A stretch of DNA of 44,809 nt. Source: an uncultured Hungatella sp. GTDB lineage: Bacteria; Bacillota; Clostridia; Lachnospirales; Lachnospiraceae. The notes under the pieces were generated by a model. It ran no database searches, was not told where the DNA came from, and was given only the letters and a program-made list of their open reading frames with translations. The stretch is taken from contig CATLBO010000016.1 of assembly GCA_949879025.1 (NCBI GenBank), positions 1-44,809 on the forward strand. The letters run 5' to 3'. The position numbers and the translations under genes were made by a program. This document shows positions 7,224 through 23,430 of the stretch, in pieces (the first letter of the stretch is position 1; every line of letters starts with the position of its first letter).

Positions 7224-7241
7224 TTGATAAATTAAATATGT

Positions 7242-7450
7242 GACATTCAGGTGTCAGAACAATGCTTGGAATTGAAAGCGTTGGTTTTGGTGAAAAGGGA
7301 AACAGGTGAAAATCCTGTACGAACTCGTCACCGTAATTAGGGAGCAGAAGCCGATATATCACTGGGAGACTGGGAAGATGGCTGATGTGACGATCTATAA
7401 GCCGGGAGACCTGCCTGAATGTAGTACGGAAACGTTTGTTTCAGACCACG
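7242..7450 (+). ncRNA. cobalamin (B12) riboswitch aptamer
   Basis: The class hallmarks appear in order: GGTGAAAAGGGAA (from about 7288), ACAGGTGAAAATCCTGT with its short stem, a CACTGGGAGACTGGGAAG segment near 7360-7377, and the B12 box GCCGGGAGACCTGCC at 7401-7415. Adenosylcobalamin-type riboswitches turn their genes off when the ligand is present. It lies between a good promoter and a terminator, and the first gene downstream is a cobaltochelatase. Exact ends are approximate. Confidence 0.93.
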
Positions 7451-7529
7451 AGTAAATTGGTTGTACGTGCTGAGTTTGCAGAACAGAACATGCTTTTGAC
7501 AGTTTATTCTGCAGATTTATTTGTGCATG

Positions 7530-7581
7530 AAACCCTTTATCGGCTGCGTAGGTTGAACGGCGGCTGGTGAAAGGGTTTTTT
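7530..7581 (+). terminator. riboswitch-controlled intrinsic terminator
   Basis: AAACCCTTT (7530-7538) pairs with AAAGGGTTT (7570-7578), followed by a T run to 7581, ending 36 bases before cbiK. The inner arm holds a second GC-rich paired region. A further inverted repeat, TGCAGAA/TTCTGCA upstream (about 7477-7513), may belong to the competing fold. This is the expected expression platform, giving premature termination when B12 is bound. Confidence 0.85.
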
Positions 7582-7617
7582 GTATTAAGAAAGCTGCAAA
7601 AAAGAAGAGGAGGAGAC

Positions 7618-8514
7618 ATGAAGAAACAGTTAAAGGCATTGCTAATGGGATTTTTAACGGGGGCACTGTGCATGGCAGGGTGTAAAAGCGAGGCGGCTTC
7701 AGAGAAAGCGGATGGAGGAGGCAATACGGCCATTTTAGTAGTGAGTTTTGGAACCAGCTATAATGACAACAGAAAAGTTACCATTGAGGCTATTGAGGAC
7801 GCAATTGGAAAGGCATGCCCGGACTATCAGGTGCGCAGGGCGTTTACCAGCCAGATTATTATTGACAAGCTGAAAGAAAGGGATGGGCTGATCATTGACA
7901 ATGTTGAGGAGGCGCTGGACAAGGCGGAAAAGGATGGAATCACTAATCTGGTGGTGCAGCCTACACATTTGATGGATGGATATGAATATACGGATTTGGC
8001 ACATGCCCTGAAAAATTATGAGGGCAGATTTGACAAAGTTGTATTGGGGGAACCGCTGCTTTCCAGCAGCGAGGATTTTGATGAGGTGATGAAAGCTGTT
8101 ACGGAGAAGACATCATCTTATGATGACGGGGAGACGGCTGTCTGCTTTATGGGACATGGGACAGAGGCTGACTCCAACAGGGTTTATGCCGATATGCAGG
8201 ACAGGCTGACGGCGGAAGGGTATGGAAATTATTATATCGGAACTGTGGAGGCAGAGCCGACGCTGGATGATGTTTTGGCCCTGTTAAAGGAAAAAGGGAT
8301 CTACAAAAGGGTGGTTCTTGAACCTTTGATGGTAGTTGCAGGAGATCATGCCAACAATGACATGGCAGGAGATGAGAAGGACTCGTGGAAGACTATTTTG
8401 GAAAATGAAGGGTATGAGGTGGAGTGTGTCCTTGAAGGGCTTGGCCAGATTCCGGCTATTCAGGATATCTATGTAAAACATGTCCTGGCAGCAGTTGAAC
8501 AGATGAAAAAGTAG
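7618..8514 (+). CDS. cbiK: sirohydrochlorin cobaltochelatase CbiK, lipoprotein form
   Basis: CbiK inserts Co2+ into sirohydrochlorin, the entry step of the oxygen-independent cobalamin pathway. The 298-aa protein carries the family histidines: H117 in QPTHLMDG, H180 in MGHGTEAD and H244 in AGDHANNDMAGD, the last two matching the metal-site histidines of the Salmonella enzyme. Unusually, it begins with a lipoprotein signal (hydrophobic core, lipobox CMAGC, lipidated Cys22), so it should sit outside the membrane. A periplasmic CbiK that also binds heme is known in Desulfovibrio. The start at 7618 follows AGAGGAGGAG. It leads an operon whose next four genes are also surface or transport proteins. 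Confidence 0.9.
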   Translation: MKKQLKALLMGFLTGALCMAGCKSEAASEKADGGGNTAILVVSFGTSYNDNRKVTIEAIEDAIGKACPDYQVRRAFTSQIIIDKLKERDGLIIDNVEEALDKAEKDGITNLVVQPTHLMDGYEYTDLAHALKNYEGRFDKVVLGEPLLSSSEDFDEVMKAVTEKTSSYDDGETAVCFMGHGTEADSNRVYADMQDRLTAEGYGNYYIGTVEAEPTLDDVLALLKEKGIYKRVVLEPLMVVAGDHANNDMAGDEKDSWKTILENEGYEVECVLEGLGQIPAIQDIYVKHVLAAVEQMKK

Positions 8515-8540
8515 TTCGTTTAGGGGGCATCAGACAGAAA

Positions 8541-9482
8541 ATGGAAAAAGTATTCAAGGGCAGCTTGTTTTTACTGGCTTTCATAATCAGCGTACTGACG
8601 GCACCAGAAAAATGCTATGGGGAAGAGACGGAACCAGGCCTGTCTCCTGTTTATGGGAAAGATATAAAGGACGGAAGTTATCAGGTTGAGGTGGAATCCA
8701 GTTCGTCCATGTTCCGTGTTGTTAAGGCAGAGCTGACCGTTGAGAAGGGAAGTATAAAAGCAGATATTACTTTAAGCGGAACAGGCTATCTAAAACTGTT
8801 TATGGGGAAAGGGCAGGAGGCTTTAAAGGCTGGGGAGGACAGCTATATTCCCTATGAGGAGGATGAAAGCGGGGCTTATACATATACCATACCCATTGAA
8901 GCACTGAACGCAAAGTTTCCGTGCGCTGCATACAGCAAGAGAAAAGAAACATGGTATGATCGGCAGCTTGTGATATGGTCTTCTTCTCTGCCGAAGGAGG
9001 CTTTTACAGGAGAAGCACAGGAAATGGCTAAGCCGGCGCCGGTTCTCATAGAGAAAGATACTGGAGAGTATACAGCCGAGGTTTCTTTGAAAGGAGGAAC
9101 CGGAAGGGCCGGAATTGTTTCTCCGGCGCATATCCATGTGGAGGACGGTTCTGTCAGTGCATTGATTCAATGGAACAGCCCCAATTTTGATTATATGATT
9201 GTCAATGGGCAAAAGTATCTGCCAGTTAATTCCGGAAACGGAGAATATTCCGTGTTTGAGATTCCGGTTTTGGCATGGGATGCGGAGATGAATGTGACTG
9301 CGGATACCGTTGCCATGAACAGTCCTCATGAGATTGAGTATATATTGATATTCCATTCAGATACCCTGCAAAAAGAAAAAAGCGGTTCCAGAGGATTGGC
9401 TGCAGCAGTTATTTCTGCTGCAGCAGTTGGAGCAGGATGGTTGATTATATACAGGGGCAGAAGAAAGGCAAGGAATGCTTAA
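8541..9482 (+). CDS. membrane-anchored protein with two NEAT-like beta-sandwich domains
   Basis: The 313-aa product has an N-terminal signal peptide (to about residue 27), two repeats of a roughly 110-residue domain (about 40-150 and 170-285) and a C-terminal membrane helix followed by the basic tail YRGRRKARNA. Both repeats start with DG/TG-Y-x-V/A-E-V and contain a second strand of the KLTV-x-x-G type, an aromatic stretch (GTGYLKLFMG; NFDYMIVNGQKYLP), an F-E-IP or YTIP motif, and an end like EIEYILIF. This resembles the iron-transport-associated (NEAT-type) fold that binds heme or other tetrapyrroles. I infer capture of a tetrapyrrole, corrinoid or metal at the surface for the downstream ABC transporter; the ligand is unknown. 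It overlaps the next gene by 8 nt. Confidence 0.72.
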   Translation: MEKVFKGSLFLLAFIISVLTAPEKCYGEETEPGLSPVYGKDIKDGSYQVEVESSSSMFRVVKAELTVEKGSIKADITLSGTGYLKLFMGKGQEALKAGEDSYIPYEEDESGAYTYTIPIEALNAKFPCAAYSKRKETWYDRQLVIWSSSLPKEAFTGEAQEMAKPAPVLIEKDTGEYTAEVSLKGGTGRAGIVSPAHIHVEDGSVSALIQWNSPNFDYMIVNGQKYLPVNSGNGEYSVFEIPVLAWDAEMNVTADTVAMNSPHEIEYILIFHSDTLQKEKSGSRGLAAAVISAAAVGAGWLIIYRGRRKARNA

Positions 9483-10659
9483 AGGCAGGAGAATACGGTG
9501 TTTATTGGCAGCAGTTATTTTGGGAGTAAGCATGCCTGCAGGATGTGGCAGCCAGACTGGCCATAAAGGAAAGGACCAGGCGTATTTTGACCAGAAGGAA
9601 AGAGGCCAAGGGATTAGCAAAATGCTTTCTTATACAGAGAGCATGGATCTGCAGTTTGCCTGCAGGTTTGCTGTGGATTATTATGAAGACGGATATGCTC
9701 TGATTTTGACGGAAAATGGGAAGCGCTATCTGGTGGTGCCGGAAGACGGAGAGGCGCCGGAGGACTTAGACCAGGAGATTACAGTGTTGAGACGTCCGCT
9801 GAATAACATTTATCTGGTGGCAACGGCGGCAATGGATATGTTCTGCCAGTTGGACGGACTGGATTTTGTTGGGTTTTCCGGACAGAAATCTGATGGATGG
9901 GCCATGGAAGAGGTTCGACAGGAGATGGAAAAAGGGAACATTTTATATGCGGGAAAATATGATTCGCCGGATTATGAACGAATTGTATCTGGGGGATGCT
10001 CCCTTGCTGTTGAAAATAATATGATTACCCATTGTCCAGAAGTGGCCGAGAAGCTGGAAAGCTTCGGAATACCGGTACTAATTGATTCTTCCAGCTATGA
10101 GAGCCATCCTCTTGGACGAGTGGAATGGATAAAGCTGTACGGCGTTTTGCTGGGCAGGCAAGAGGCGGCGTCAGCAGCTTTTGATAGACAGGTTAAGGCC
10201 TTTAAACGTGTTGCAGATATGGAAGCATCAGGAAAGACAGCGGCATTTTTTTATATTACGGCAAATGGCATGGTCAGTGTCAGGACGGCCTCAGATTATG
10301 TACCTGCATTGATTAGGCTGGCCGGAGGAAGGTATGTGCCGGATGTGGATGAGAAGGAAAGCAGACGTTCTACGATGGTCATGCAGATGGAGGAATTTTA
10401 TCTTGCCGCCAAAGATGCGGACTATTTGGTCTATAACAGCACCATAGACGGGGAATTAGAATCTATAGAGGAACTGATTATGAAAGAAAATCTGCTGGGA
10501 GATTTTAAGGCGGTACAGGAAGGCAATGTATGGTGTACTGACAGGGATTTATATCAGCAGTCCATGTCAGCAGGGCTGATGATGGAAGATATCCATAGGA
10601 TGTTGTCAGGGGATGCAGACCGGCAGAAAGAGATACAGTGTTTGTATCAGCTTAAATAG
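9475..10659 (+). CDS. ABC transporter substrate-binding lipoprotein (cobalamin/iron-complex type)
   Basis: The 394-aa lipoprotein (lipobox PAGC, Cys24) belongs to the helical-backbone binding proteins used with FecCD/BtuC permeases. A Firmicute-type N-terminal segment (FAVDYYEDGYALI, RYLVVPED, NNIYLVATAAMDMF) precedes the two binding lobes (DGLDFVGFSGQKSDGW; IPVLIDSSSYESHPLGRVEWIKLYGVLLGR). The B12 riboswitch makes a corrinoid or corrin precursor the likely cargo; heme, a siderophore or another metal complex remains possible. It starts inside the end of the NEAT-like gene (AAGG ribosome site) and is 9 nt from the permease. Confidence 0.85.
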   Translation: MLKGRRIRCLLAAVILGVSMPAGCGSQTGHKGKDQAYFDQKERGQGISKMLSYTESMDLQFACRFAVDYYEDGYALILTENGKRYLVVPEDGEAPEDLDQEITVLRRPLNNIYLVATAAMDMFCQLDGLDFVGFSGQKSDGWAMEEVRQEMEKGNILYAGKYDSPDYERIVSGGCSLAVENNMITHCPEVAEKLESFGIPVLIDSSSYESHPLGRVEWIKLYGVLLGRQEAASAAFDRQVKAFKRVADMEASGKTAAFFYITANGMVSVRTASDYVPALIRLAGGRYVPDVDEKESRRSTMVMQMEEFYLAAKDADYLVYNSTIDGELESIEELIMKENLLGDFKAVQEGNVWCTDRDLYQQSMSAGLMMEDIHRMLSGDADRQKEIQCLYQLK

Positions 10660-10668
10660 GAGGGGCAA

Positions 10669-11688
10669 ATGCTGGAAAACAGGAAAACAGCCCGCTGCAG
10701 TATGGCATTGACTTTTCTCGGTGTGGGAAGCCTGATGCTTCTTTTCTGCAATATTATATTCGGAAGCATTTCCATTCCTGCCCGGGAATTTGGAAGTTTT
10801 TTGGCAGGGGGCAGGATGGATGAGACTTACAGGCGCATTATTATGGAGATTCGTTTTCCCAGGGCTGCGGCCGCATTCTGGCTTGGCGGGGCGCTGGCAT
10901 TATCCGGTTATCTTTTGCAGACTTTTTTTCGCAATCCCATAGCAGGGCCTTTTGTGCTGGGAATCTCATCAGGTTCAAAGCTTGCAGTGGCGCTGGTTAT
11001 GATCTTTTTTCTTGGGAAGTCCATAAGGGTAAGTTCCGGTGCATTGATTGCGGCGGCATTTGCAGGTGCGCTGCTTTCTATGGGGGTGGTTCTTTTAATG
11101 TCAAAAAAAGTGGACAGTATGGCTTTGCTGGTTATCAGCGGCGTGATGATTGGATATATTTGCTCTGCTATAACGGACTTTATTGTGACTTTTGCAGATG
11201 ATGCGGATATTGTGAATCTGCACAGCTGGTCCCAGGGCAGCTTTTCTGGAATGAATTGGGACCATGTGGCAGCTATGGCGGCAGTGCTGTCTGTGTCGGT
11301 TTTGATTATCTTTTGTTTGGCAAAGCCTATAAGCGCATATGAACTGGGGCAATCTTATGCGGAGAACATGGGCGTAAATACCGTTAAGCTGCAGATTCTT
11401 CTGGTTATACTTTCCAGTATTCTTTCTGCCTGCGTGGTGGCTTTTGCAGGCCCCATCTCATTTGTAGGAATTGCAGTTCCGCACCTTGTTAAGAGACTGG
11501 CGGATACTAGCAGGCCCCTTTGGATGATACCGGCAAGCTTTCTGGGAGGCAGTATGTTCTGCCTTGGCTGTGACCTTATAGCCAGAATTTCATTTGCGCC
11601 TGTAGAGCTTGGCATCAGCACGGTAACGGCTGTTTTTGGGGCGCCGGTGGTACTTTGGATCATGGCAGGAAGGAGAATGGGGACATGA
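10669..11688 (+). CDS. FecCD/BtuC-family ABC transporter permease
   Basis: The 339-aa polytopic protein has about ten hydrophobic segments and motifs of vitamin B12 and iron-complex permeases: RFPRAAAAFWLGGALALSG near residue 65, FFRNPIAGPFVLGISSG, and the C-terminal VAFAGPISFVGIAVPHLVKRL, the loop that contacts the ATPase. It forms the translocation pore with the preceding binding protein and following ATPase. Its ribosome site is AGGAGGGG; its stop overlaps the ATPase start by 4 nt. Confidence 0.9.
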   Translation: MLENRKTARCSMALTFLGVGSLMLLFCNIIFGSISIPAREFGSFLAGGRMDETYRRIIMEIRFPRAAAAFWLGGALALSGYLLQTFFRNPIAGPFVLGISSGSKLAVALVMIFFLGKSIRVSSGALIAAAFAGALLSMGVVLLMSKKVDSMALLVISGVMIGYICSAITDFIVTFADDADIVNLHSWSQGSFSGMNWDHVAAMAAVLSVSVLIIFCLAKPISAYELGQSYAENMGVNTVKLQILLVILSSILSACVVAFAGPISFVGIAVPHLVKRLADTSRPLWMIPASFLGGSMFCLGCDLIARISFAPVELGISTVTAVFGAPVVLWIMAGRRMGT

Positions 11689-12884
11689 AAAATTATTATT
11701 TTCAGGCAGAACATTTATGGGCGGGCTACAACAGGAAACCCATTGTTAGAGAGCTGGAGTTTAGGCTTCCCAAGGGAGAGATTTTAAGTCTGATCGGCCC
11801 CAACGGAGCGGGAAAATCTACGGTTTTAAAAAGCATTGCGGGACAGCTTGGACTTATAGAAGGAGTTGTTTATCTGGGAGAGGACAGCTTGTCAGAACTT
11901 GGCAGAAAGCAACTGGCAAAGAGAATGTCGGTGTTGTTTACAGAGAAACCAAAGGGGGAGATGATGACCTGCAGAGATATGGTGGCTACAGGAAGATACC
12001 CCTATACAGGGCGGTTCGGGGTGCTTTCCCCAAAAGATATGTGTATTGTGGATGAAGCACTGGAAATGGTGCATATAGCGGGGATGGCGGAACTGGATTT
12101 TAATAAGGCCAGCGATGGGCAGAAACAAAGGGTGATGCTTGCAAGGGCCATGTGCCAGGAACCGGAGATTGTAATACTGGATGAGCCTACGTCGTATCTG
12201 GATGTAAAACATAAACTGGAATTTCTGTCTGTCCTGCAGGACATGAAGGAAAAGAAAGGGCTTACAGTAATTATGTCCCTTCATGAGCTGGAACTGGCAA
12301 AAAGAATTTCCGACAAGGTTCTTTGCCTCAAAGACGGATACGCAGGGAAATATGGGACGCCAGAGGAGATTTTCAGTCACGGATACATAGAGGAGCTTTT
12401 TGACATCAGAGAGGGAAGCTTTGACCAGGAAAGCGGAAGCGTGGAATTGCGGCGTCCAAAAGGCAGGGCGGATCTGTTTGTGATTGCCGGAGGAGGACAA
12501 GGAAGGGACATTTATTACAGACTGCAGAGAGAAGGCAGACCCTTTGCTACAGGAATTCTTTATGATAATGATTTGGACTATCCTGCGGCCAGATCGCTGG
12601 CCGCACAAGTCATTGGGACAAAAGCATTTGAAACGGTCGAAGAAGGCACTATCTGTAGGGCCAGGCAGATAATGGATGCCTGCGGCCAGGTAATTTGCTG
12701 CAGGGAAAACATAGGAAGCCTGGATTTGGCCAACCGGGAGCTGATGGAATATGCTAGGGAGAAGGGAATGTATGTCAAAGGTTATTATGGTTCAGGGAAC
12801 TATGTCAGGTGCGGGAAAGAGCCTTCTTGTGGCTGGGCTGTGCAGGATTATGAGCCAGGACGGGTATCGGACGGCTCCCTTTAA
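11685..12884 (+). CDS. ABC transporter ATPase (BtuD/FecE type) with C-terminal extension
   Basis: The 399-aa protein has an N-terminal ATPase domain (about 1-245): Walker [10 protein letters not shown] at 38-46, an SDGQKQR signature, Walker B VILDEPTS and a switch histidine in SLHELEL. An extra C-terminal domain (about 265-365) begins with [17 protein letters not shown] and has a Rossmann-like look; its role is unknown to me. The final 37 codons lie inside cbiP in another frame and read like arbitrary sequence, suggesting that an ancestral stop near the cbiP start was lost. The overlap with cbiP is 113 nt. Start at 11685 by the ATGA overlap. Confidence 0.88.
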
Positions 12885-14256
12885 ATCCCAGAATATGGCG
12901 CTTAATTCTTATGTTACAAGAGATGGGCTTGAGATGGGAAGGGCGCAGGCAATGCAGGCAGAGGCAGCAGGAATAAAGCCCCGGGTATGCATGAATCCGA
13001 TTCTGCTGAAGCCGACAGATCATACAGGCTCCCAGGTCATTGTAAATGGGCAGATTCTTAGAAATATGAGTGCAAAGGAATATTTTTCCTATAGGAAAAA
13101 GCTGATTCCGGATATAAAGAAGGCCTTTTCCATATTAGAAAAGGATGCGGATGTAATTATCATAGAAGGAGCCGGCAGTCCAGCGGAGATAAATCTGCGG
13201 AAACATGATATTGTGAACATGGGATTGGCTCAGATGGTAGATGCGCCGGTGCTCCTTGTAGGTGACATTGACAGAGGAGGCGTGTTTGCACAGCTTTTGG
13301 GGACTCTTATGCTGCTTTCCCAAGAGGAGAGAAGACGGATAAAAGGCCTGATTATTAATAAGTTCCGGGGGGATAAGTCGCTTCTGGACCCGGGGATTGA
13401 AATGTTGGAAGAAAAGGGAGGAATTTCGGTAACAGGGGTGATTCCCTACATGGATATTTCTCTGGAGGATGAGGACAGCCTGACAGAACGATTTGAGAAA
13501 AAGAAAAGAGGCCTTATTGATATTGCGGTAATCCGGTATCCGCGAATTTCCAATTTTACCGATTTTAATATTTTTGAACAAATACCAGGTGCAGCTGTCC
13601 GATATGTGGCTTCAGCAGATAGACTGCTGCAGCCGGATATAATATTTCTGCCAGGCAGCAAGAATACCATGAAAGATTTAGCCTGGATGCGAAGCGGCGG
13701 ATTGGAGGACGCAGTGAAAGCCATGGCAGGAAAAGTACCAATCTGCGGTATCTGCGGAGGCTACCAGATGATGGGACAATGGATTTCTGATCCGGAAACC
13801 TGGGAGGCAGGAGGAAGTATGAGAGGAATGGGGCTCCTTCCTGTTAAAACAAAGTTGCAGAAAGAAAAGGTATGCAGGCAGGTTTGCGGAAAGATCACAA
13901 AAACAGAAGGGATATTCTCCGGGATTACCGGGCTGGAGTATGCAGGATACGAGATACATATGGGACGGACAATGCTGATGGAGGGAGAAGGAACAAAAGG
14001 AAATGAGGCCTTTGTTTCTGGCAGGCAAAAGGACGTGTATGGAACTTATATTCATGGGATATTTGACAGAAGCGGCATAGCTTCTGCTATTGTGAAAGCA
14101 TTGGCAGAGAGAAAAGGAGCAAAGATAAAGGGAGAAGGTTTTGATAATTATATGGATTTTAAGAATAAGCAGTATGATAGGCTGGCGGATACTTTAAGAC
14201 AGCATCTGAATATGGAGGAGATTTATGGAATGCTGGAAGAAAGTCATTTGCAATAG
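12772..14256 (+). CDS. cbiP: cobyric acid synthase
   Basis: The 494-aa glutamine-dependent enzyme (CobQ/CbiP) amidates four side-chain carboxylates of adenosylcobyrinic acid a,c-diamide to give cobyric acid. The N-terminal DTBS-like ATPase part has [14 protein letters not shown] and [10 protein letters not shown]. The C-terminal class I glutaminase-like part has its nucleophile in [11 protein letters not shown] (about residue 326) and a late [10 protein letters not shown] histidine. The start at 12772 follows GGGAGAAGGGA and gives the normal N-terminus. It lies inside the preceding ATPase reading frame, so the first 37 codons encode two proteins. Confidence 0.95.
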
Positions 14257-15325
14257 CCATACAGAGGAGGAACTGAAAAGGCTGCGTGTAGATGTTCCAG
14301 ACAATGGGATATATAAAAAGGTGCTGAAAAACTGGGACAGCATAGCCAAACCTCTTGATGGGATGGGACGGTTTGAAATACTGACTGCACAGATAGGCGC
14401 TGCAGCCGGCACAGATGACATCTGCATTTCCAGAAAGGCTGTTATTGTCATGTGTTCGGATAATGGAATTGTAGAAGAAGGAATCAGCCAGTCAGGGCAG
14501 GAGATTACGGCGTTGGTGGCACGTCAGATAGCCATGGGGAATTCTTCAGTGGGAAAAATGGCGGCAGCAATAGGAGCAGATGTGATACCCATAGATATGG
14601 GCATTAACCAGAAGGAATCTGTTCCTGGAGTTCTTAACAGAAGAATACGCCGGGGAACAAGAAATTTCAGAAAAGAGCCTGCCATGACTCGGGAAGAAGC
14701 TGTCAGGGCAGTGTTTACAGGGATACAGACAGTGTGGGAATGTAAAGAAAAGGGGTATGACATTCTGGCCACGGGTGAAATGGGGATTGGAAATACCACT
14801 ACAAGCAGTGCCGTGGCTGCTGCGTTGCTTAACTGCAGTGCAAAAACGGTTGTGGGGAGAGGCGCAGGTTTAAGCGATGAAAAGCTGGCCCATAAGCAGC
14901 TGATTATTGAGGATGCTATAGATAAATATCAACTGACAGGGGCAGAGCCTTTAAAAGTGCTGGAATCTGTGGGAGGCTATGATATTGCAGGACTTGCAGG
15001 CGTGTGCATCGGCGGCGGACTGTACCATATGCCAGTGGTTTTGGATGGGGTAATCAGCATGACGGCTGCGCTGCTTGCCCAGCGGCTGGTTCCGGGAACC
15101 GTCAGATATCTGATACCATCTCATAAAGGGAAAGAACCGGCAGTGAAAAGAATCATGGAGGAGCTGAAGCTGGAGCCTGTTATTGATGGAGGTATGGCAT
15201 TGGGGGAAGGGACAGGGGCAGTCATGATGCTGGATCTGCTGGATTTGGCATTGAAGATCTATAATGGAAGAAACACGTTTTCAGATATTCAGATAGAACC
15301 ATATGAAAGGTATTCAGACAGATGA
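14225..15325 (+). CDS. cobT: nicotinate-nucleotide--dimethylbenzimidazole phosphoribosyltransferase
   Basis: The 366-aa enzyme activates the lower-ligand base as its alpha-ribotide for the nucleotide loop. Family motifs include [31 protein letters not shown], the glycine-rich [25 protein letters not shown], and SHKGKEPA with the late catalytic-region EGTGAVM. The start at 14225 has GGAGGAG upstream and overlaps cbiP by 32 nt. No dimethylbenzimidazole synthesis gene (bluB or bza) is in the window, so the native lower ligand cannot be told. Confidence 0.95.
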
Positions 15326-15885
15326 TGATTCTGATTATAGGGGGCAGCGGAAGCGGAAAATCTTCCTATGGGGAGCAGACAGCGGTTTCTCTTTCAGCAG
15401 GAAAGGACTTCAAAAAGTATTACATTGCTGCTATGAAGATATTTGATGGTGAGGGGCAGAAAAAAGCAGAAAGACACAGGGCATTAAGAAGCGGGAAAGG
15501 TTTTATTACCATTGAGCAGCCTGTGGATTTTTTCAGGGTTCTGGAGAAGATGGAAGAAGGAAACAGAACTTTACTGCTGGAGTGCATATCCAACCTTGCG
15601 GCTAATGAGATGTTTTCTGGGGAAGTGCCTAAGCCGCCAATGGAAACAGCAGAAAAAATCATTGGGGAAATACAGAAGGTACAAAGACAGGTAACCCATT
15701 TGATTGTGGTAAGCAATAATGTATTTGAGGACGGAATTGCTTATGAAAAGACTGTTATGGAATATATACAGGCAATGGGACGGATTAATCAGAAGCTGGC
15801 TTCCATGGCAGACAGAGTGGTGGAGGTTGCAGCCGGAATCCCTATAACTGTGAAACAGGAGGACAGCAGGATATGCAGGTTTTGA
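15322..15885 (+). CDS. cobU: adenosylcobinamide kinase / adenosylcobinamide-phosphate guanylyltransferase
   Basis: The 187-aa cytoplasmic enzyme phosphorylates adenosylcobinamide and transfers GMP to it. The P-loop GGSGSGKSSYGE (residues 7-18) is intact. AERHRALR carries the histidine region used for the GMP intermediate, followed by LLLECISNLAANEMF and a C-terminal ADRVVEVAAGIP. It begins MM; either Met could start. It overlaps the cobT stop by 4 nt and cobS by 13 nt. Confidence 0.92.
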   Translation: MMILIIGGSGSGKSSYGEQTAVSLSAGKDFKKYYIAAMKIFDGEGQKKAERHRALRSGKGFITIEQPVDFFRVLEKMEEGNRTLLLECISNLAANEMFSGEVPKPPMETAEKIIGEIQKVQRQVTHLIVVSNNVFEDGIAYEKTVMEYIQAMGRINQKLASMADRVVEVAAGIPITVKQEDSRICRF

Positions 15886-16643
15886 AATCTTTTTTCATAG
15901 CATTTGCCCTGTACTCCCAAATCCCCGTTCTTCGGTTTCCATGGAAAGAGGAGGACATGAAATACACGTTTTGTTTTTTTCCATGGATAGGGGCGGTTAT
16001 TGGGGGATGCGTCTATATTTGGAACCGCTTGTGCGGAATATGGGGCATTGGAAATGGTGCCCGAACGGCAGTGGGGATAGTGCTGCCGTTAGTGATTACA
16101 GGCGGCTTTCATTTGGATGGATTTATGGATACTATGGATGCGTTTCATTCCTATGAGCCTGAAGAACGGAAATTGCAGATTTTAAAGGACCCCCATATCG
16201 GCGCATTTGCCGTTATTATGCTGGCTGTATACGGGCTGGCATATATGGGGGCATTCTCAGAAATACAGGATGACAGTCTGATAAAGATCGTGTGCCTGGG
16301 ATTTTTTTTATCCCGATGTTTAAGCGGAATCGGGGCCCTTTCATTTCCCCTGGCAAAAAGGGACGGGATGCTTTATCTTTTTGCGGATCGTTCTCACAAA
16401 AGGATTGTTAAGGGGGTATTGTATCTGGAGTGTGGGATGTGCATGGGCCTAATGCTTTTTTCGTCGTTTGGCCCAGGGCTTTGTGTGGCATCGGCTGCTT
16501 TCCTGTCATTTTTCTTCTGCCGCAGGCGCTGCGAAAAGGAGCTGGGAGGAATAACCGGGGACACGGCAGGGTATTTTGTAGTACTCTGCGAAGTTTGGAT
16601 GGCAATAGCAGCAGCTGCCGTCCAGATAGTTTTAAAAGCATAG
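15873..16643 (+). CDS. cobS: adenosylcobinamide-GDP ribazoletransferase (cobalamin synthase)
   Basis: The 256-aa membrane protein joins adenosylcobinamide-GDP and alpha-ribazole (or its phosphate). It shows the family N-terminus FFIAFALYSQIPVLRFPW, then FFPWIGAVIGG, the acidic GGFHLDGFMDTMDAF motif, ILKDPHIGAFAV and a late GGITGDTAGY. Six to seven hydrophobic helices are visible. The ribosome site AGGAGG lies inside cobU. Confidence 0.93.
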   Translation: MQVLKSFFIAFALYSQIPVLRFPWKEEDMKYTFCFFPWIGAVIGGCVYIWNRLCGIWGIGNGARTAVGIVLPLVITGGFHLDGFMDTMDAFHSYEPEERKLQILKDPHIGAFAVIMLAVYGLAYMGAFSEIQDDSLIKIVCLGFFLSRCLSGIGALSFPLAKRDGMLYLFADRSHKRIVKGVLYLECGMCMGLMLFSSFGPGLCVASAAFLSFFFCRRRCEKELGGITGDTAGYFVVLCEVWMAIAAAAVQIVLKA

Positions 16644-16669
16644 GATATTCAGGAAATGAGGAAGGAAAG

Positions 16670-17053
16670 ATGAAACTGATTATAGGCGGATATGCACAGG
16701 GAAAATTGGACTATGTTTTGGAAAAATACGGTATGGAAAATGTTTCAGTGTGGGAGGGTACGCTGCCAAACAGCAAGGAGCTGGCTGAAAAAACAGTGGT
16801 CATTAACCATTTTCATAACTGGGTTAGGAACCGGGTGGCAGAAGGCGGGTGCCCTCAGCAGGAGGTACGGTTATTTTTAGAGCAATATAGAGACTGCATT
16901 ATAATCAGTGATGAAATCGGAAATGGGATTGTGCCCCAGGACCCTTTGGAAAGAGAGTACAGAGAGTGTACAGGGAGAATCCTGATTCAGATTGCAGAAA
17001 GGGCAGAGGAAGTGGAGAGGGTTTTATGTGGAATCGGCCAGAGAATCAAATAG
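16670..17053 (+). CDS. short CobU/CobP-like protein with a degenerate P-loop
   Basis: The 127-aa protein starts with LIIGGYAQGKLDYV, where a kinase P-loop would read GGxxSGKS, so the lysine is kept but the serine is lost. It ends with CobU-like elements: IISDEIGNGIVPQDPLEREYRECTGR (16926-17003) and an IAERAEEVERVLCGIG helix. The middle of a full CobU is largely missing. A complete cobU lies two genes upstream, so this may be a partner, a regulator, or a guanylyltransferase-like remnant. It begins 26 nt after cobS behind GAAGGAAAG and overlaps cbiB by 28 nt. Similar short proteins are known in clostridial cobalamin operons. Confidence 0.8.
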   Translation: MKLIIGGYAQGKLDYVLEKYGMENVSVWEGTLPNSKELAEKTVVINHFHNWVRNRVAEGGCPQQEVRLFLEQYRDCIIISDEIGNGIVPQDPLEREYRECTGRILIQIAERAEEVERVLCGIGQRIK

Positions 17054-18045
17054 CTGTATTTATACTGGGATTTTTCCTGGATCTGGCGTTAGGAGATCCC
17101 CATGTTTTTCCTCACCCTGTCCGGCTTATGGGAAAGCTCATAAACGAAACCGAAAAAAGACTGCGGAAAAACAGGACAAGTTCAGATGCAGAATTTTGGT
17201 CAGGCACTGCACTGATTGCTATAGTGCTTGGATGTACGGCTGCATCAGCATGGATCATTCTGTATGCAGCCTACAGTCTGCATTTTTATGCGGGCATGGC
17301 AATGGAGATACTTATGGTTTATCAGATTTTGGCTGCTAAGTGCCTGAAGATTGAAAGCATGAAAGTTTATGAATGCCTGAAGGCAGGCGGACTGGAGCAG
17401 GCAAGGGCAGCGGTATCTATGATTGTGGGCAGGGATACAGAAGCGCTGAATGAGGAAGAGATTGCAAAGGCAGCCATTGAGACAGTAGCAGAAAACACTT
17501 GTGACGGAGTTATTGCCCCTATGCTGTACACAGCTTTTGGGGGGCCGGTGCTGGGCTTCCTCTACAAGGCAGTGAATACGATGGATTCCATGATCGGCTA
17601 CAAGAATGACACCTATTTATACTTTGGAAGGGCGGCTGCAAAACTGGATGATATTGCCAATTATGTACCATCCAGAATCAGTGCTGTGTTTATGATTGCA
17701 GCGTCTTTCCTTTTGGGAAAGGAATTTTCCGGAAAAGGGGCATGTTATATTTACAGAAGGGACAGCAGAAACCATGCAAGCCCCAACTCTGCACAGACGG
17801 AATCAGCGTGCGCTGGAGCCCTTGGTATCAGGCTGGCAGGAGACAGCCAGTATTTTGGAAAGACAGTAAAAAAGTCTTATATCGGAGACAATCAGCGTCC
17901 CGTAGAATATGAAGATATAAAACGTGTAAATAAACTGATGTATGCAGCAGCCGTTCAGTGTGAATTGCTGTGTATACTGCTGATTTGGGGAAGGGGGATA
18001 CTATGGCGTCGGTTCATGGCGGGGATATTTACCGGAATCATGTAG
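17026..18045 (+). CDS. cbiB: adenosylcobinamide-phosphate synthase
   Basis: The 339-aa membrane protein attaches (R)-1-amino-2-propanol phosphate (or a related linker) to adenosylcobyric acid. Recognisable are DLALGDPHVFPHPVRLMGKLI near the N-terminus, AAVSMIVGRDTEALNEEEIAKAAIETVAENTCDGVIAPM (17407-17523) and YKAVNTMDSMIGYKND. The start at 17026 follows GGAGAGG inside the CobU-like gene. The following aminotransferase starts 43 nt before its end. Confidence 0.93.
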   Translation: MWNRPENQIAVFILGFFLDLALGDPHVFPHPVRLMGKLINETEKRLRKNRTSSDAEFWSGTALIAIVLGCTAASAWIILYAAYSLHFYAGMAMEILMVYQILAAKCLKIESMKVYECLKAGGLEQARAAVSMIVGRDTEALNEEEIAKAAIETVAENTCDGVIAPMLYTAFGGPVLGFLYKAVNTMDSMIGYKNDTYLYFGRAAAKLDDIANYVPSRISAVFMIAASFLLGKEFSGKGACYIYRRDSRNHASPNSAQTESACAGALGIRLAGDSQYFGKTVKKSYIGDNQRPVEYEDIKRVNKLMYAAAVQCELLCILLIWGRGILWRRFMAGIFTGIM

Positions 18046-19646
18046 ATTTGGATTTTTCTGTAAATATAAACCCACTGGGTGTGCCTGGGCAGGTGGCGGC
18101 AGCCATGCATGAGGCAGTTGGAATGTGCAGCAGATATCCGGATATGGAGGCAGAACGTTTAAAGACAGCCGTCAGCCGTATGCAGGAAGTTCCAAAAGAG
18201 TGTCTGGTATTCGGAAACGGTGCGTCAGAACTTTTTATGGCAGTGGTTCATGGACTACGGCCAGAGAAGATAGTGATACCGGTTCCATCCTTTTACGGGT
18301 ATGAGTATGCGGCTGAAGCGGCAGGAGGGACAGTCCTTTACTGGGAAACAAAAGAAAAAAATTCTTTTGCAGTAACGGAAGAAATCTGCACGGTTCTTAC
18401 AGAGGATACGGACATGGTGTTTCTTGCAAACCCCAATAATCCTACAGGAAGCCTGATGGGCAGGGAAACTATGGAAAAGATTCTGGCACACTGCAGAAGT
18501 AAGGGGATTTATGTGGTGCTGGACGAGTGCTTTATTGAATTTTGCGGCAGGGAATATTCCATGGAATCCGGGCTGAACCGGTTTGACAATCTAATCATTG
18601 TCAGGGCGTTTACTAAGATTTTTTCCATTCCCGGCGTGCGTTTGGGATACCTTTTGTGCCGTAACAGAAAAATTCTGGCTAAAATCCGAAGACAGCTTCC
18701 AGAGTGGAATCTGTCATGTTTCGCCCAGGCGGCAGGGTGCGCATGTGCACTGCAGACAGATTTGGCAGCCCAGACACAGGAATATGTGGTGAAAGAGAGA
18801 CAGTATCTTGAGCAAGGGCTTATAAAAGCAGGGGTTCAGGTGTTTCCTTCCCAAGCTAATTTTATCCTGTTTTACAGTAAAGAACACATATACGACAGGC
18901 TGCTGAACAAGGGAATTCTTATAAGAGACTGCAGGAATTACAGAGGACTAAGGCCTGGTTTTTATCGGATTGCAGTGAAGACCAGAAAGGAGAATGAGAT
19001 TTTGCTAAGAGAGATTGAATGCTTGCTGCCGGCAGATATTGAACGGCGAAGCTTTGAGATCATAGAACGGGAACTTCAGGACAGGAACATTGTTCTTCCT
19101 TTCCAGGAACGCATGGTTACGAAACGGGTGATCCATGCCACCGCTGATTTTGATTATGCGGATACTTTGACATATTCAGAAAATGCAGTAACAATCGCAG
19201 GAGAGATTATAAAGAACGGCGCATGTATTGTGACAGATACCAACATGGCTTTAGCCGGAATTAACAAGAAGGTATTGGCAGGGTTCGGCGGAAAAGCCTG
19301 CTGTTTTATGGCAGAGGAAAAGGTTGCTGTTGAAGCAGAAAAACGGGGGATGACAAGGGCGGCGTTTAGTATGGAAAAGGCGGCAGAAATCCCGGGGCCT
19401 GTTATTTTCGTCATCGGAAACGCCCCTACAGCGCTTATAAGGCTGTATGAGCTGTCCCAGGAAAGGGACTGGAAACCGGCATTTATCATTGGAGTTCCTG
19501 TAGGATTTGTGAATGTGGAGGCAGCCAAGGAACTTATATTACATTCAGGGATACCGCATATTGTGAACAGAGGGAGAAAGGGAGGAAGCAATGTGGCAGC
19601 GGCCATATGCAATGCCATTCTCTACGGGCTGCCAGGGGCGGAATAA
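18003..19646 (+). CDS. CobD-CbiC fusion: threonine-phosphate decarboxylase / cobalt-precorrin-8 methylmutase
   Basis: The 547-aa protein joins two enzymes used at different pathway stages. Residues 1 to about 350 form a PLP fold-type I aminotransferase-like CobD, which makes aminopropanol phosphate from threonine phosphate: MASVHGGD, FSVNINPLG, NPNNPTG and K205 in RAFTKIFSIPGVRLGY. Residues from about 355 form CbiC, which moves the C11 methyl to C12: RVIHATADFDYADTL, GACIVTDTNMALAGI, GVPVGFVNV and RGRKGGSNVAAAICNAI. The start at 18003 follows AAGGGGG. Both active regions look intact. Confidence 0.93.
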   Translation: MASVHGGDIYRNHVDLDFSVNINPLGVPGQVAAAMHEAVGMCSRYPDMEAERLKTAVSRMQEVPKECLVFGNGASELFMAVVHGLRPEKIVIPVPSFYGYEYAAEAAGGTVLYWETKEKNSFAVTEEICTVLTEDTDMVFLANPNNPTGSLMGRETMEKILAHCRSKGIYVVLDECFIEFCGREYSMESGLNRFDNLIIVRAFTKIFSIPGVRLGYLLCRNRKILAKIRRQLPEWNLSCFAQAAGCACALQTDLAAQTQEYVVKERQYLEQGLIKAGVQVFPSQANFILFYSKEHIYDRLLNKGILIRDCRNYRGLRPGFYRIAVKTRKENEILLREIECLLPADIERRSFEIIERELQDRNIVLPFQERMVTKRVIHATADFDYADTLTYSENAVTIAGEIIKNGACIVTDTNMALAGINKKVLAGFGGKACCFMAEEKVAVEAEKRGMTRAAFSMEKAAEIPGPVIFVIGNAPTALIRLYELSQERDWKPAFIIGVPVGFVNVEAAKELILHSGIPHIVNRGRKGGSNVAAAICNAILYGLPGAE

Positions 19647-19650
19647 TAGG

Positions 19651-20763
19651 ATGCGCCGGGGATTTACTACGGGAAGCTGTGCGGCAGCGGCAGCAAAAGC
19701 AGCAGCCTATATGCTGCTGACAGGAAAAAAGAGAACAGAGATTGTCATAGAAACTCCCAAGGGGATTCTTTATAAGGCGGAACTTTTGGACATTTGCCGC
19801 AGAGAAAATCAAGTAAGCTGTGCAGTAGAAAAAGACGGCGGGGATGATCCGGACATTACCACCGGAGTGCGGATTTATGCCAAAGTTTCTTACAGAGAAG
19901 GACAGGACATTGTTATTGAAGGCGGCGAAGGAGTGGGAATGGTTACCAGGCCGGGGCTGGATCAGCCGGTGGGCAGCGCTGCCATTAACCATGTTCCAAG
20001 ACAGATGATAAAAAGGGAAGTTACGGAAGTGTGCCGGCTGACAGATTATAAAGGCGGATTAAGAATTGAGATTGCAGTACCAGGAGGACAGCAGCTTGCA
20101 GAGAGCACATTTAATCCCAGGCTTGGAATCATAGGGGGCATATCTATTCTGGGGACTACAGGAATCGTGGAGCCTATGAGCAGTCAGGCTTTTCTGGATA
20201 CCATTAGGGCAGAGTTAAGCCAAAGGAAGGCAGAAGGATTTGACTATGCCGTATTGACGCCAGGTAACTATGGACTTGATTTTATGAAAAGAACCTATAG
20301 CTGGGATTTGGATAAAAGTATAAAATGCGGCAATTTTATCGGGGCAGCCCTGGATATGGCGGCTGAACTGGAATTCGCAAAAATCCTATTTATGGGCCAT
20401 ATAGGCAAACTGATCAAGGTGTCAGGAGGAATCATGAATACCCATTCCCGGGAGGCGGACTGCCGGATGGAGCTGCTTGCCGCTTTTGCAGTTTCAGAGC
20501 AGGTGGATTATGCATGCATATGCAGAATTCTGGAATGCAAAACAACGGAAGAAGCGGTGCGTATTCTGAAAGGAAGCGGGAAGCTGCAGCCGGTTATGAG
20601 GCATATAGCGGAGCGCATCTGTTATTACATGGAAAAGAGAGCCGGCCAAAAAATAAAAGCAGACTGTATCTTATATACAAATGAACTGGGAGAATTGGCA
20701 AAAAGCGGGGAGGCAGAAGCATGGTTTACTTTGTTGGCGCAGGAACAGGGGCAGCGGATTTGA
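19651..20763 (+). CDS. cbiD: cobalt-precorrin-5B (C1)-methyltransferase
   Basis: The 370-aa enzyme methylates C1 after ring contraction and acetaldehyde loss in the oxygen-independent route. It opens with the characteristic RRGFTTGSCAAAAAKAA and contains VEKDGGDDPDITTGV, GVGMVTRPGLDQPVGSAAIN (19935-19988), GGISILGTTGIVEPMS and MGHIGKLIKVSGGIMNTHSREADCR (20391-20465). The start at 19651, 4 nt after the fusion gene, gives the correct family N-terminus. It overlaps cbiF by 43 nt. Confidence 0.95.
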   Translation: MRRGFTTGSCAAAAAKAAAYMLLTGKKRTEIVIETPKGILYKAELLDICRRENQVSCAVEKDGGDDPDITTGVRIYAKVSYREGQDIVIEGGEGVGMVTRPGLDQPVGSAAINHVPRQMIKREVTEVCRLTDYKGGLRIEIAVPGGQQLAESTFNPRLGIIGGISILGTTGIVEPMSSQAFLDTIRAELSQRKAEGFDYAVLTPGNYGLDFMKRTYSWDLDKSIKCGNFIGAALDMAAELEFAKILFMGHIGKLIKVSGGIMNTHSREADCRMELLAAFAVSEQVDYACICRILECKTTEEAVRILKGSGKLQPVMRHIAERICYYMEKRAGQKIKADCILYTNELGELAKSGEAEAWFTLLAQEQGQRI

Positions 20764-21479
20764 TAACAATCAGAGGGATGAGGCTGCTGGGACAGGCGGA
20801 TGTGATTATTTATGCCGGCTCTCTTGTAAATCCGGAACTTCTTTCTTATGCTCATAAGGAATGTGAGATTCATAACAGTGCCTGGCTGACTCTTGAAGAA
20901 GTGGTGAAGATTATGAGGGAGGCTGAGGAAAAAGGGAAAATGACTGTCCGGCTTCACACAGGAGAACCAAGCATTTATGGGGCTGTCAGAGAACAGATGG
21001 ATCAACTGGATAAGGCAGGAATCAGCTATGAAAGCTGCCCAGGGGTAACAGCCTGTTTTGGGGCAGCGGCATCATTGAATTTGGAATACACCTTGCCTGG
21101 GATTTCCCAGTCACTGATAATCACAAGGATGGAGGGAAAGACAGCAGTGCCGGCCGGGGAAAGCTTGGAATCTCTTGCCGCCCACCAGGCGTCTATGGCT
21201 ATTTATCTAAGCACAGGACTACTTTTGGAAGTCAGCAGGCGTTTAATTGCAGGCGGCTATAGGGAAGATACTCCGGCAGCCCTGGTTTATAAAGCTACCT
21301 GGCCCCAGGAGGAGGCATATATCTGTACAGTGGGGACACTGTATGACACAGCTATGGAACATGGCATAGCAAAAACCGCTGTAGTGCTGGTAGGCGACGC
21401 AATTGCCCATCAGAATTACAGGAGATCAAGATTGTATGCCCCGGATTTCTCAACAGAATTTCGGAAGGCAAAAGAGTAA
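20721..21479 (+). CDS. cbiF: cobalt-precorrin-4 C11-methyltransferase
   Basis: The 252-aa SAM-dependent enzyme of the tetrapyrrole methylase family methylates C11. Typical parts are MVYFVGAGTGAADLITIRG, IIYAGSLVNPELL, RLHTGEPSIYGA and PGVTACFGAAASLNLEYTLPG. It starts within the cbiD end behind GGGGAGG. Ordinary length for the family. Confidence 0.95.
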   Translation: MVYFVGAGTGAADLITIRGMRLLGQADVIIYAGSLVNPELLSYAHKECEIHNSAWLTLEEVVKIMREAEEKGKMTVRLHTGEPSIYGAVREQMDQLDKAGISYESCPGVTACFGAAASLNLEYTLPGISQSLIITRMEGKTAVPAGESLESLAAHQASMAIYLSTGLLLEVSRRLIAGGYREDTPAALVYKATWPQEEAYICTVGTLYDTAMEHGIAKTAVVLVGDAIAHQNYRRSRLYAPDFSTEFRKAKE

Positions 21480-21506
21480 AGGCTGCAGATGACAGGAGAC
21501 AAATAT

Positions 21507-22586
21507 ATGGACAGAAACAGGAAGTTGAGCATAATTAGCTTTACTGGTAAGGGAAAAAGGCTTTCCCAGACGATTGAGGAACAACTGACAGATATAGAAG
21601 TCTCCCTGTTTACAAAACATAAACCTGACATAGGTGAGGAAGGCAGCCAATGGGTGCCATATGTGGAGAATTCTGTGGGACAGTGGGCAAAGGAACAGAT
21701 GGAAAAAGGAAATGCCATGCTGTTTATAGGGGCATGCGGAATTGCGGTCAGGGCAGCAGCCCCTTATGTAACAGACAAGCTTTATGACAGCCCGATACTG
21801 GTCATGGATGAACATGCAAAGCATGTGATCCCTCTTCTGGCAGGGCACATGGGGGGAGCCAACGGGCTTGCCCGCTTTATTGGCCGAAAAATAGGAGCAG
21901 AGCCAGTGATTACTACGGCAACAGATATTAACGGAATATTTGCAATTGATCTGTTTGCCAAGAGAAACGGACTTTTGATTACAAACAGGCAGGGAATTGC
22001 AAGGGTATCTTCCAAAGCCTTAGACAGAAAAACCATAACAATATCCATAGAGCCGGGCCACAGAAAACAGGATAGCCTAATGCCGGAAGGAGTATGCATA
22101 ACCGATTATCCTCCTGCATGCCCGGCAGATGTGGTTATTACGTCTCAGGAGTATGAATATGACACAGAGCTTCTTTTAAAGCCTAAGGAGTATGTGATTG
22201 GAATGGGATGCAGAAGAGGGAAAGAAAGAACGGAAATCCAGGCTTTTATTTTGAGAGAACTGGACAGGGTTGGTATTTGCTTATGTCAGGTGTATGCCCT
22301 TGCTTCTATTGATCAGAAGCGAAATGAACAGGGACTGGCAGAGTGGTGCAGGAGAGAGAAAATCCCCTTTGTCACTTATACTGCCCAGGAGCTTAAGGAG
22401 ATAAAAGGAACGTTTGGCAGTTCTTTATTTGTAGAGGAAACCGTAGGCGTTGATAATGTCTGCGAACGGGCGGCTTTAAAAGCCTGTGGCTGGGGTGGAA
22501 AACTGATCTGTGAAAAACGTGCAGAAAACGGAATGACCTTTGCAGCGGCCAAAAGAGAATGGATGGTTGATTTTGATGAAGAATAA
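21507..22586 (+). CDS. cbiG: cobalt-precorrin-5A hydrolase
   Basis: The 359-aa enzyme opens the delta-lactone and releases the C20 carbon as acetaldehyde. Motifs are FIGACGIAVRAAAPYV, PLLAGHMGGANGLA, TTATDINGIFAIDLFA and, in the C-terminal domain, YVIGMGCRRGKE. I prefer the start at 21507 because AGGAGA lies eight bases upstream. An in-frame ATG at 21489 with AAAGG upstream is the alternative and would add six residues. It overlaps cbiH by 11 nt. Confidence 0.93.
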   Translation: MDRNRKLSIISFTGKGKRLSQTIEEQLTDIEVSLFTKHKPDIGEEGSQWVPYVENSVGQWAKEQMEKGNAMLFIGACGIAVRAAAPYVTDKLYDSPILVMDEHAKHVIPLLAGHMGGANGLARFIGRKIGAEPVITTATDINGIFAIDLFAKRNGLLITNRQGIARVSSKALDRKTITISIEPGHRKQDSLMPEGVCITDYPPACPADVVITSQEYEYDTELLLKPKEYVIGMGCRRGKERTEIQAFILRELDRVGICLCQVYALASIDQKRNEQGLAEWCRREKIPFVTYTAQELKEIKGTFGSSLFVEETVGVDNVCERAALKACGWGGKLICEKRAENGMTFAAAKREWMVDFDEE

Positions 22587-23430
22587 AATTTATATAATAG
22601 GCATAGGGCCTGGGCAGGAAGATATGATGACTGGTGAGGCCATAAAAGCGCTGGAACAGGCGGATGTTATTGTAGGATATACTGTATATCTGAATCTGCT
22701 TGGCAGCCGGTTTCAGGATAAAGAGCTGATATCAACTTCCATGGGGCGGGAAGAAGAACGCTGCAGAATCTGCTTTACAGAGGCAGAGAAGGGCAAAAGG
22801 GCGGCGCTGATTTGCAGCGGAGATGCAGGAATCTACGGAATGGCGTCTTTGATGTATAAAATCGCCGGTCAATACCCAAACACGGAACTTACCGTGATTC
22901 CTGGAGTAACCGCAGCCAGCAGCGGGGCTGCAGTGCTGGGCGCCCCTGTCAGCCATGATTTCTGCACAGTCAGTTTAAGCGATTTGCTGACGCCGTGGGA
23001 AGTAATAGAGAAGCGGCTGGATTCTGCGGCAAAGGGAGACTTTGTGATAGTAATCTATAACCCGTCCAGCCATAAGAGAAAAGACTATCTGAAAAGAGCT
23101 TGTGATATTCTGCTGCAAACCATAGACGGCAGCCGGGCGTGCGGGTATGTGGAAAATATCGGGCGAAGAGGAACAAAAGCATATGTCTGTACGCTGGAAG
23201 AGCTGAGATACAGGGAAGTGACGATGTTTACCACAGTGTTTATCGGCAATTCCGATTCTGAAATCATAGATGGAAAACTGATTACGAAGCGAGGGTATAA
23301 AATTGAAAGAAGTGCTGATATTTGCGGGAACAACGGAAGGGAGGGAACTGTCGGAATATCTGGCAGCGGCAGGGGAAGCCCACAGAATCTGCGTGGCAAC
23401 GGAATACGGGGAGACTGTATTAAAACCTGA
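22576..23430 (+). CDS. cbiH: cobalt-precorrin-3 C17-methyltransferase
   Basis: The 284-aa SAM-dependent ring-contraction enzyme shows IYIIGIGPGQEDMMTGEA, ADVIVGYTVYLNLL, ICSGDAGIYGMASL, VIPGVTAASSGAAVLGAPVSHDF (22893-22961) and VIVIYNPSSHKRKDYL. CbiH proteins usually end soon after the KLITKRGYKI region, reached here near 23303. The last 42 residues are read from the start of the next gene in another frame, are rich in Gly and Ser and look unselected. The start at 22576 gives the normal N-terminus, though its ribosome site is weak and it may depend on coupling to cbiG. Confidence 0.92.
   Translation: MKNKIYIIGIGPGQEDMMTGEAIKALEQADVIVGYTVYLNLLGSRFQDKELISTSMGREEERCRICFTEAEKGKRAALICSGDAGIYGMASLMYKIAGQYPNTELTVIPGVTAASSGAAVLGAPVSHDFCTVSLSDLLTPWEVIEKRLDSAAKGDFVIVIYNPSSHKRKDYLKRACDILLQTIDGSRACGYVENIGRRGTKAYVCTLEELRYREVTMFTTVFIGNSDSEIIDGKLITKRGYKIERSADICGNNGREGTVGISGSGRGSPQNLRGNGIRGDCIKT

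Follow-up and report, generated by a model that had tools for sequence, protein, structure and literature searches.

We analysed a 44,809-nucleotide stretch of DNA (the window; positions 1 to 44,809 of the forward strand of contig CATLBO010000016.1, GenBank assembly GCA_949879025.1) from an uncultured Hungatella sp. of the Lachnospiraceae, in which five genes behind a cobalamin riboswitch encode an exported cobaltochelatase of the CbiK family, a membrane-anchored protein that carries two NEAT-type domains, and an ATP-binding cassette (ABC) importer. This module is real, conserved and assembled from known parts. We consider it probable that it is a B12-repressed surface module, which salvages a preformed sirohydrochlorin-type tetrapyrrole, loads it with cobalt outside the membrane and brings it into the cell for the corrin pathway. 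Such a module would explain how species unable to make the ring precursor could still make B12.

The window lies in contig C16 of a draft genome of 3.79 Mb in 255 contigs (82.8% complete). The riboswitch aptamer (7232..7432, + strand; Rfam RF00174, 101.7 bits) is followed by a terminator-like hairpin with a U-run (7523..7585, +; -31.2 kcal/mol, z -5.7), and cbiK starts at 7618 behind a purine-rich ribosome-binding site. The five genes, all on the + strand, encode the exported CbiK, a class II chelatase with a lipoprotein signal at Cys22 (7618..8514); the membrane-anchored protein with NEAT-type domains A and B at about residues 37-156 and 166-282 (8541..9482); a substrate-binding protein of the Peripla_BP_2 family, with a lipoprotein-like signal at Cys24 as read from the sequence (9475..10659); a FecCD/BtuC-type permease (10669..11688); and a FecE/BtuD-type ATPase, lengthened at its C-terminus by about 150 residues (11685..12884). 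An earlier note on this DNA had described these genes as a lipoprotein CbiK, a two-NEAT protein and a FecCD-type importer under a B12 riboswitch, and our searches confirm the description. The same five-gene order is found in the relatives L152 ("Clostridiaceae bacterium", NEAT protein identity 59%), L153 ("uncultured Clostridiales") and L154 ("Lachnospiraceae bacterium" from roe deer abomasum), the only three that a scan of genome contigs returned.

The CbiK of the window matches positions 2-261 of the 262 of Pfam CbiK (PF06180) with 289.4 bits (cut-off 26.2), and with 249.7 bits it falls below the curated score of 400 of the NCBIfam equivalog SiroCoChCbiK. It matches the solved structures 1qgo, 2xvx (E 1.8e-39) and 9b86 (E 1.5e-47), which we take to be Salmonella CbiK, Desulfovibrio vulgaris CbiK and, in the case of 9b86 (FetB), the same protein as IhtB of Porphyromonas gingivalis. 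Its residues H180, H244 and E123 align with the active site of 1qgo, assuming the His, His and Glu assignment of Salmonella enterica CbiK, and the His/His/Glu set is kept in all 47 exported CbiKs of relatives. A large subgroup of exported CbiKs (e.g. L044, L047 and L053) carries an extra segment, LIDAIYVQ...AWDALTDAQKELVEG..., between the signal and the CbiK domain; the segment is not present in the CbiK of the window.

The NEAT-type protein scores 20.6 bits against the Pfam NEAT family (PF05031), under the gathering score of 32.8. Searched as single domains at E ≤0.1, 17 of 22 B domains (best 1.5e-6) and 11 of 18 A domains (best 6.8e-5) match PF05031; for the window's domain B by itself there is no match. 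A profile search of domain B against PDB sequences returned chance matches only, and direct phmmer searches of the NEAT-type protein (P0002) and of P0003 against PDB returned none. In the structure prediction that the earlier note had called for, the top structural matches of the model are NEAT structures, and in this model domain B adopts the NEAT fold. Domain B ends in AMSxPHExxY, with H263-x3-Y267 (of 55 such domains 89% have the H and all have the Y), and domain A has K135-x3-Y139 (K in 87% of 54 domains), the register being taken from pattern alone for domain B and from alignment to IsdX2-NEAT5 for domain A, whose WYD aligns with the FYD of IsdX2-NEAT5. The heme motif of the heme-binding Isd-type NEAT domains is YxxxY. 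Since neither domain A nor domain B has it, their motifs suggest that they handle a ring or metal other than heme.

The permease belongs to the Pfam FecCD family, and its best NCBIfam score is with BtuC (198.2 bits, below the cut-off of 334). The ATPase matches the corrinoid ATPase model with 187 bits over 327 residues (cut-off 537) and FecE with a higher score (207 bits). Its extension of about 150 residues has no Pfam match of its own, and similar ATPase lengths are seen in many relatives.

Conservation of the linkage was followed in a fixed set of 150 genomes from the host's family (G000-G149, among them the own genome), which holds 108 CbiK matches in 84 genomes. Surroundings were taken for all of these except one 44-residue fragment, the neighbour scan covering 9 kb downstream on one strand; gene labels at the loci of relatives are best matches to the window genes and to the HemC, SUMT, SirC and CbiL frames of the own genome. 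Three CbiK matches below 200 bits (L137, L141 and L142) were excluded from the residue, linkage and signal counts and kept at the genome level. Export was first judged by eye from N-termini and neighbours and then tested by signal prediction (Sec-type signal, lipobox). Two kinds of CbiK emerged: cytosolic ones, most of which start just ahead of the domain by a few residues, and exported ones, which carry signals. A Sec-type signal is present in 45 of the 47 exported CbiKs and a lipobox in 43, the two exceptions being L046, which is truncated by the end of its contig, and L036, whose signal is weaker and lacks a lipobox. Two of the 55 cytosolic CbiKs have a Sec-type signal (both in long fused frames) and none has a lipobox; the second CbiK of G010, cut at a contig end with its N-terminus unseen, was taken as cytosolic.

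The linkage of a lipoprotein CbiK with the two-domain protein, which the earlier note had put forward for scrutiny in relatives, proved to be conserved. NEAT domains lie in the same frame or at most 9 kb downstream for 45 of the 47 exported CbiKs (46 relatives with the window excluded) vs. none of the 55 cytosolic ones; because L046 was counted as exported on the strength of its fusion to NEAT, its NEAT link is circular, and without it the count is 44 of 46. Several loci are cut by contig ends, and the other partners of the exported CbiKs are a binding protein (36 of 47), a permease (35) and an ATPase match (32), compared with 1, 2 and 11, respectively, of the 55 cytosolic CbiKs. CbiK and NEAT share a single frame in 14 distinct cases, NEAT and the binding protein do so in 10 cases, and this chain of fusions ties chelatase, NEAT domains and transporter together. 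RNA-family searches at 41 of the 62 exported-CbiK loci found a same-strand cobalamin riboswitch upstream in 36 (7/9, 10/10, 11/11 and 8/11 by batch); of the misses, L035 and L042 have fewer than 500 upstream bases, and L180, L186 and L188 have no such excuse.

The gene content of the same 150 genomes links the module to the corrin pathway. Taking a P0002 hit at E ≤0.001 as presence, we find the NEAT family in 52 of the 87 CbiD-positive genomes vs. 1 of the 63 CbiD-negative ones (G063, 89% complete). Thirty of the 87 CbiD-positive genomes have no HemC match, and these comprise 22 with exported CbiK only, 2 with cytosolic CbiK only and 6 with no CbiK; a cytosolic CbiK is found in 48 of the 57 that have HemC. 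Of the 80 CbiD-positive genomes that have a CbiK, 8 of the 30 exported-only ones carry HemC, vs. 48 of the 50 that have a cytosolic CbiK (p 4.5e-11); at a completeness of at least 95% the figures are 3 of 16 vs. 39 of 41. Without HemC no uroporphyrinogen III would be expected. Thirteen of the 22 HemC-less exported-only genomes are at least 95% complete, 20 have no SUMT and 19 no SirC (scored as present from about 60 bits of PF13241 upwards, a cut of our own choice), and the absence of SUMT and SirC places pathway entry in those genomes at sirohydrochlorin or later. The later steps are kept: cbiD, cbiF, cbiH, cbiJ and cbiE/T all matched in the 18 of these 22 genomes that were fetched, and cbiG was unmatched in one of the 18 (G072).

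CbiL was scored absent where no match, single or frame-joined, reached about 130 bits. By this measure 12 of the HemC-less exported-only genomes have no CbiL, out of 19 such CbiD-positive genomes overall, 18 of which carry the NEAT family; all 34 genomes whose CbiK is solely cytosolic have it. Four CbiL-less genomes that retain HemC (G003, G029, G048 and G053) also carry the NEAT family, and their early branch may serve siroheme only. HemB was unmatched in 22 of 66 HemC-positive family genomes, the own genome (contig C37) included, so that porphobilinogen is perhaps imported or made by an unrelated enzyme there; one HemB match of 24 bits (G149) was left uncounted.

A class-wide sample of 311 genomes contained 56 outside the own family with a CbiK above 100 bits. 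Exported-only CbiKs were found in 7 of the 14 without HemC vs. 1 of the 42 with HemC (p 1e-4), six of the latter (G239, G353, G333, G344, G294 and G180) being called cytosolic by a frame length of at most 275 residues. Modules of NEAT and importer genes occur in families f5, f14, f53 and f61; in f14, f26 and f43 there are lipoprotein CbiKs for which the sequence fetched shows no NEAT partner. Three HemC-less genomes (G203, G208 and G283; loci L178, L179 and L185) have a CbiK without a detected signal beside FecCD/ATPase importers, the match in G208 being partial; these CbiKs are perhaps internal chelatases for an imported ring.

Several observations weigh against the salvage of a sirohydrochlorin-type ring as the common function of these modules. 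The gene presence lists were compiled by hand, and the absences rest on draft genomes. Eight exported-only CbiD-positive genomes, the own genome included, keep HemC, and 7 of the 8 also have CbiL; they would make sirohydrochlorin de novo without a cytosolic CbiK, unless SirC or another enzyme inserts the metal. Three HemC-less genomes (G040, G094 and G142) carry the NEAT family with no CbiK match; cobalt may already be in the ring on arrival in these. At the loci concerned in these CbiD-positive genomes (L065, L061 and L145, respectively), NEAT proteins, two of them longer than 1000 residues, adjoin importer genes. The NEAT family is missing in 5 of the 30 HemC-less CbiD-positive genomes (G018, G052, G062, G127 and G149). 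Species without CbiL would need a ring beyond sirohydrochlorin, hence one ligand may not fit all. The class-wide HemC comparison was made regardless of CbiD status; 7 of its 14 HemC-less genomes with a CbiK have no exported copy (two of the matches being partial), and for 2 of the 7 exported CbiKs (G171 and G245) the sequence fetched shows no NEAT partner. For 61 exported CbiKs a quick tree was built; the best tree has 14 changes of HemC status, and an independent-pairs test on such quick trees gave 3 contrasts on supported branches, in the expected direction or tied and not significant, 3 usable pairs being too few to reach significance. The association with HemC loss is thus strong by count and weaker by a strict phylogenetic test.

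The own genome is one of the eight that keep HemC. At 83% completeness its early genes HemC, SUMT and SirC matched and HemB did not; HemC, SUMT and UroS are in one frame. This HemC-SUMT-UroS fusion stands together with SirC, an oxidoreductase and a siroheme-type sulfite/nitrite reductase at 7688-13551 of locus L143 (contig C37), a composition which suggests that the cluster is a siroheme branch. The earlier note had named a cytoplasmic CbiK or CbiX elsewhere in the genome that does the pathway step, with no ligand bound by the surface proteins, as a finding that would speak against its reading. In the 82.8% complete genome PF06180 has a single match, and CbiX matched the same gene; about 17% of the genome is unseen, where a second CbiK may lie. 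Among relatives, 16 CbiD-positive genomes do have both an exported and another CbiK. With a siroheme branch and one CbiK, which is exported, the own genome may run the siroheme branch and an imported ring in parallel; probably the de novo branch supplies siroheme, and the corrin branch is fed, or supplemented, by the module.

We propose the following course of events. The surface NEAT domains would capture an exogenous sirohydrochlorin-type tetrapyrrole, either factor II or, in species without CbiL, the C20-methylated factor III. The lipoprotein CbiK would insert Co2+ outside the membrane, possibly exchanging another metal, and the binding protein would hand the cobalt-loaded ring to the FecCD-type importer, whereupon cytoplasmic CbiL/H/F/G/D/J/E/T/C/A would complete the corrin. 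B12 would switch the whole module off, as the riboswitch class suggests. What is observed are the gene order, the riboswitch, the export signals, the fusions, the conserved CbiK residues, the NEAT fold of domain B in the model and the co-occurrence with missing HemC, SUMT, SirC and cytosolic CbiK; which ligand is bound, whether chelation precedes import, what the transporter prefers and the repression by B12 are inferred. The interpretation of the earlier note is supported in part: gene order, fusions, invariant CbiK residues and the co-occurrence with genomes that have lost HemC, SUMT and SirC and kept the corrin genes speak well for the sequence of capture, cobalt loading and import that it had sketched; of the ligands it named, a sirohydrochlorin-type ring fits and heme fits poorly. 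According to the available part of a review, non-catalysed cobalt insertion is negligible at cell-buffered cobalt and CbiK sustains it (PMC7689651); this is a rationale for pairing capture with a chelatase.

The B12 riboswitch, the BtuC score of the permease and the match of the ATPase to the corrinoid ATPase model would suit a BtuFCD-type importer of cobamides or cobinamide, with CbiK and NEAT aiding corrinoid scavenging or being incidental. We regard this as unlikely: NEAT is fused to CbiK in 14 loci and to the binding protein in 10, the active site of CbiK is invariant, and import of corrinoids alone leaves unexplained the corrin genes kept in genomes without HemC, SUMT and SirC. Whole corrinoids may be a further cargo of the salvage module. 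That the outside CbiK is a mere carrier or scavenger of Co2+ or tetrapyrrole, the metal being inserted elsewhere, would accommodate the three HemC-less CbiD-positive genomes with the NEAT family and no CbiK match. It is highly improbable given that His/His/Glu is invariant in 47 of 47 exported CbiKs and that the 22 HemC-less exported-only genomes have no other CbiK match; the CbiX matches listed fall in CbiK genes, except a weak one in G084 (22.1 bits, within a long frame).

Least credible to us is the acquisition of heme iron, with the surface CbiK stripping iron from heme. NEAT domains do bind heme in Isd systems, heme-bound structures are among the matches of the model, and the CbiK lipoprotein matches FetB (PDB 9b86, E 1.5e-47). 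However, domain B has HxxxY and domain A a K where heme-binding NEAT domains have YxxxY. The riboswitch at 36 of 41 loci and the near-restriction of the NEAT family to CbiD-positive genomes (1 of 63 CbiD-negative ones) argue against a heme-iron system, and on these two grounds we rejected heme-iron uptake as the main role. The precedent is P. gingivalis IhtB, for which the available part of the source proposes iron removal and places the protein outside PgFur regulation (PMC10913741), the latter a point against an iron role.

Parts of the module recur in several known systems. It shares the NEAT fold with the heme uptake systems of Gram-positives (IsdX1, IsdX2 and IsdH), in which surface capture feeds an Fe-type ABC importer; unlike in these, the partner of its NEAT protein is a cobalt chelatase, control is by a B12 riboswitch, and HxxxY and KxxxY stand in the place of YxxxY. 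With the BtuFCD corrinoid importers it has in common the binding protein, permease and ATPase families and the B12 riboswitch; unlike those, it is linked or fused to NEAT and CbiK, and its permease stays below the NCBIfam BtuC cut-off. We know of no NEAT partner of the periplasmic Desulfovibrio CbiK. The D. vulgaris CbiK (2xvx) is likewise exported, being described as periplasmic in the accessible part of PMC4063343, and in Desulfovibrio cbiK-cbiL and btuCDF stand under a single B12 element according to the portion of PMC545781 at hand; the copy so controlled may be another than the periplasmic one. The Iht system of P. gingivalis (IhtABCDE) likewise combines a CbiK-family lipoprotein with a binding protein, a permease and an ATPase; it belongs to a Gram-negative with a TonB receptor, is read as heme-iron uptake, and no NEAT protein is named in the available text (PMC10913741). 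A TonB-dependent receptor such as IhtA was found neither in the five module genes nor in the scanned corrin genes, the other window frames being judged by eye. The comparison suggests to us that the Iht system and the NEAT-CbiK module are one functional type. P. gingivalis is said in the available part of PMC6461909 to lack the steps to precorrin-2, and a title cited there speaks of a functional corrin pathway.

The same source, as far as it was available, predicts tetrapyrrole precursor salvagers in 180 species, mostly Firmicutes, with a corrin pathway and no early tetrapyrrole steps, as in the HemC-less carriers of the module; dependence on 5-aminolevulinic acid was verified in three of them, and that text names no system for the capture or uptake of any ring, the later ones included (Shelton et al., PMC6461909). 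The module is a candidate for the uptake route of these salvagers. In a literature search whose coverage is thin for subscription papers, no paper joined CbiK and a NEAT domain, and phrase searches found none on sirohydrochlorin or siroheme uptake or on an exported chelatase.

Downstream of the module, corrin and cobamide genes follow on the + strand at 12772..26694: cbiP, cobT, cobU, cobS, cbiB, cobD-cbiC, cbiD, cbiF, cbiG, cbiH, cbiJ-E-T and cbiA, the cbiT part of the cbiJ-E-T fusion being assigned by eye. No cbiL is among these genes; the cbiL match of the genome sits on contig C87. A short CobU-like frame at 16670-17053 (PF02283, 46.5 bits) accompanies the full cobU gene at 15322-15885.

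With its named genes and strong co-occurrence, the module is a concrete candidate for the ring capture and uptake system of the salvagers. It is an open bet, on which we would put slightly less than even chances, that it marks a widespread nutritional type, which makes B12 only from the half-built rings of its neighbours by surface cobalt insertion coupled to NEAT capture and import, and of which Iht, as a B12-precursor system, is a further instance. The ring released by neighbours would be sirohydrochlorin or, for species that have lost CbiL, factor III. If this is true, reading Iht as a B12-precursor system would account for the Porphyromonas corrin pathway without precorrin-2 synthesis, one step of B12 synthesis would run outside the membrane, and NEAT domains would handle non-heme rings. 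Sirohydrochlorin or factor III would then be traded within microbial communities, and genome-based B12 maps that treat CbiK as a cytosolic step would misjudge many species.

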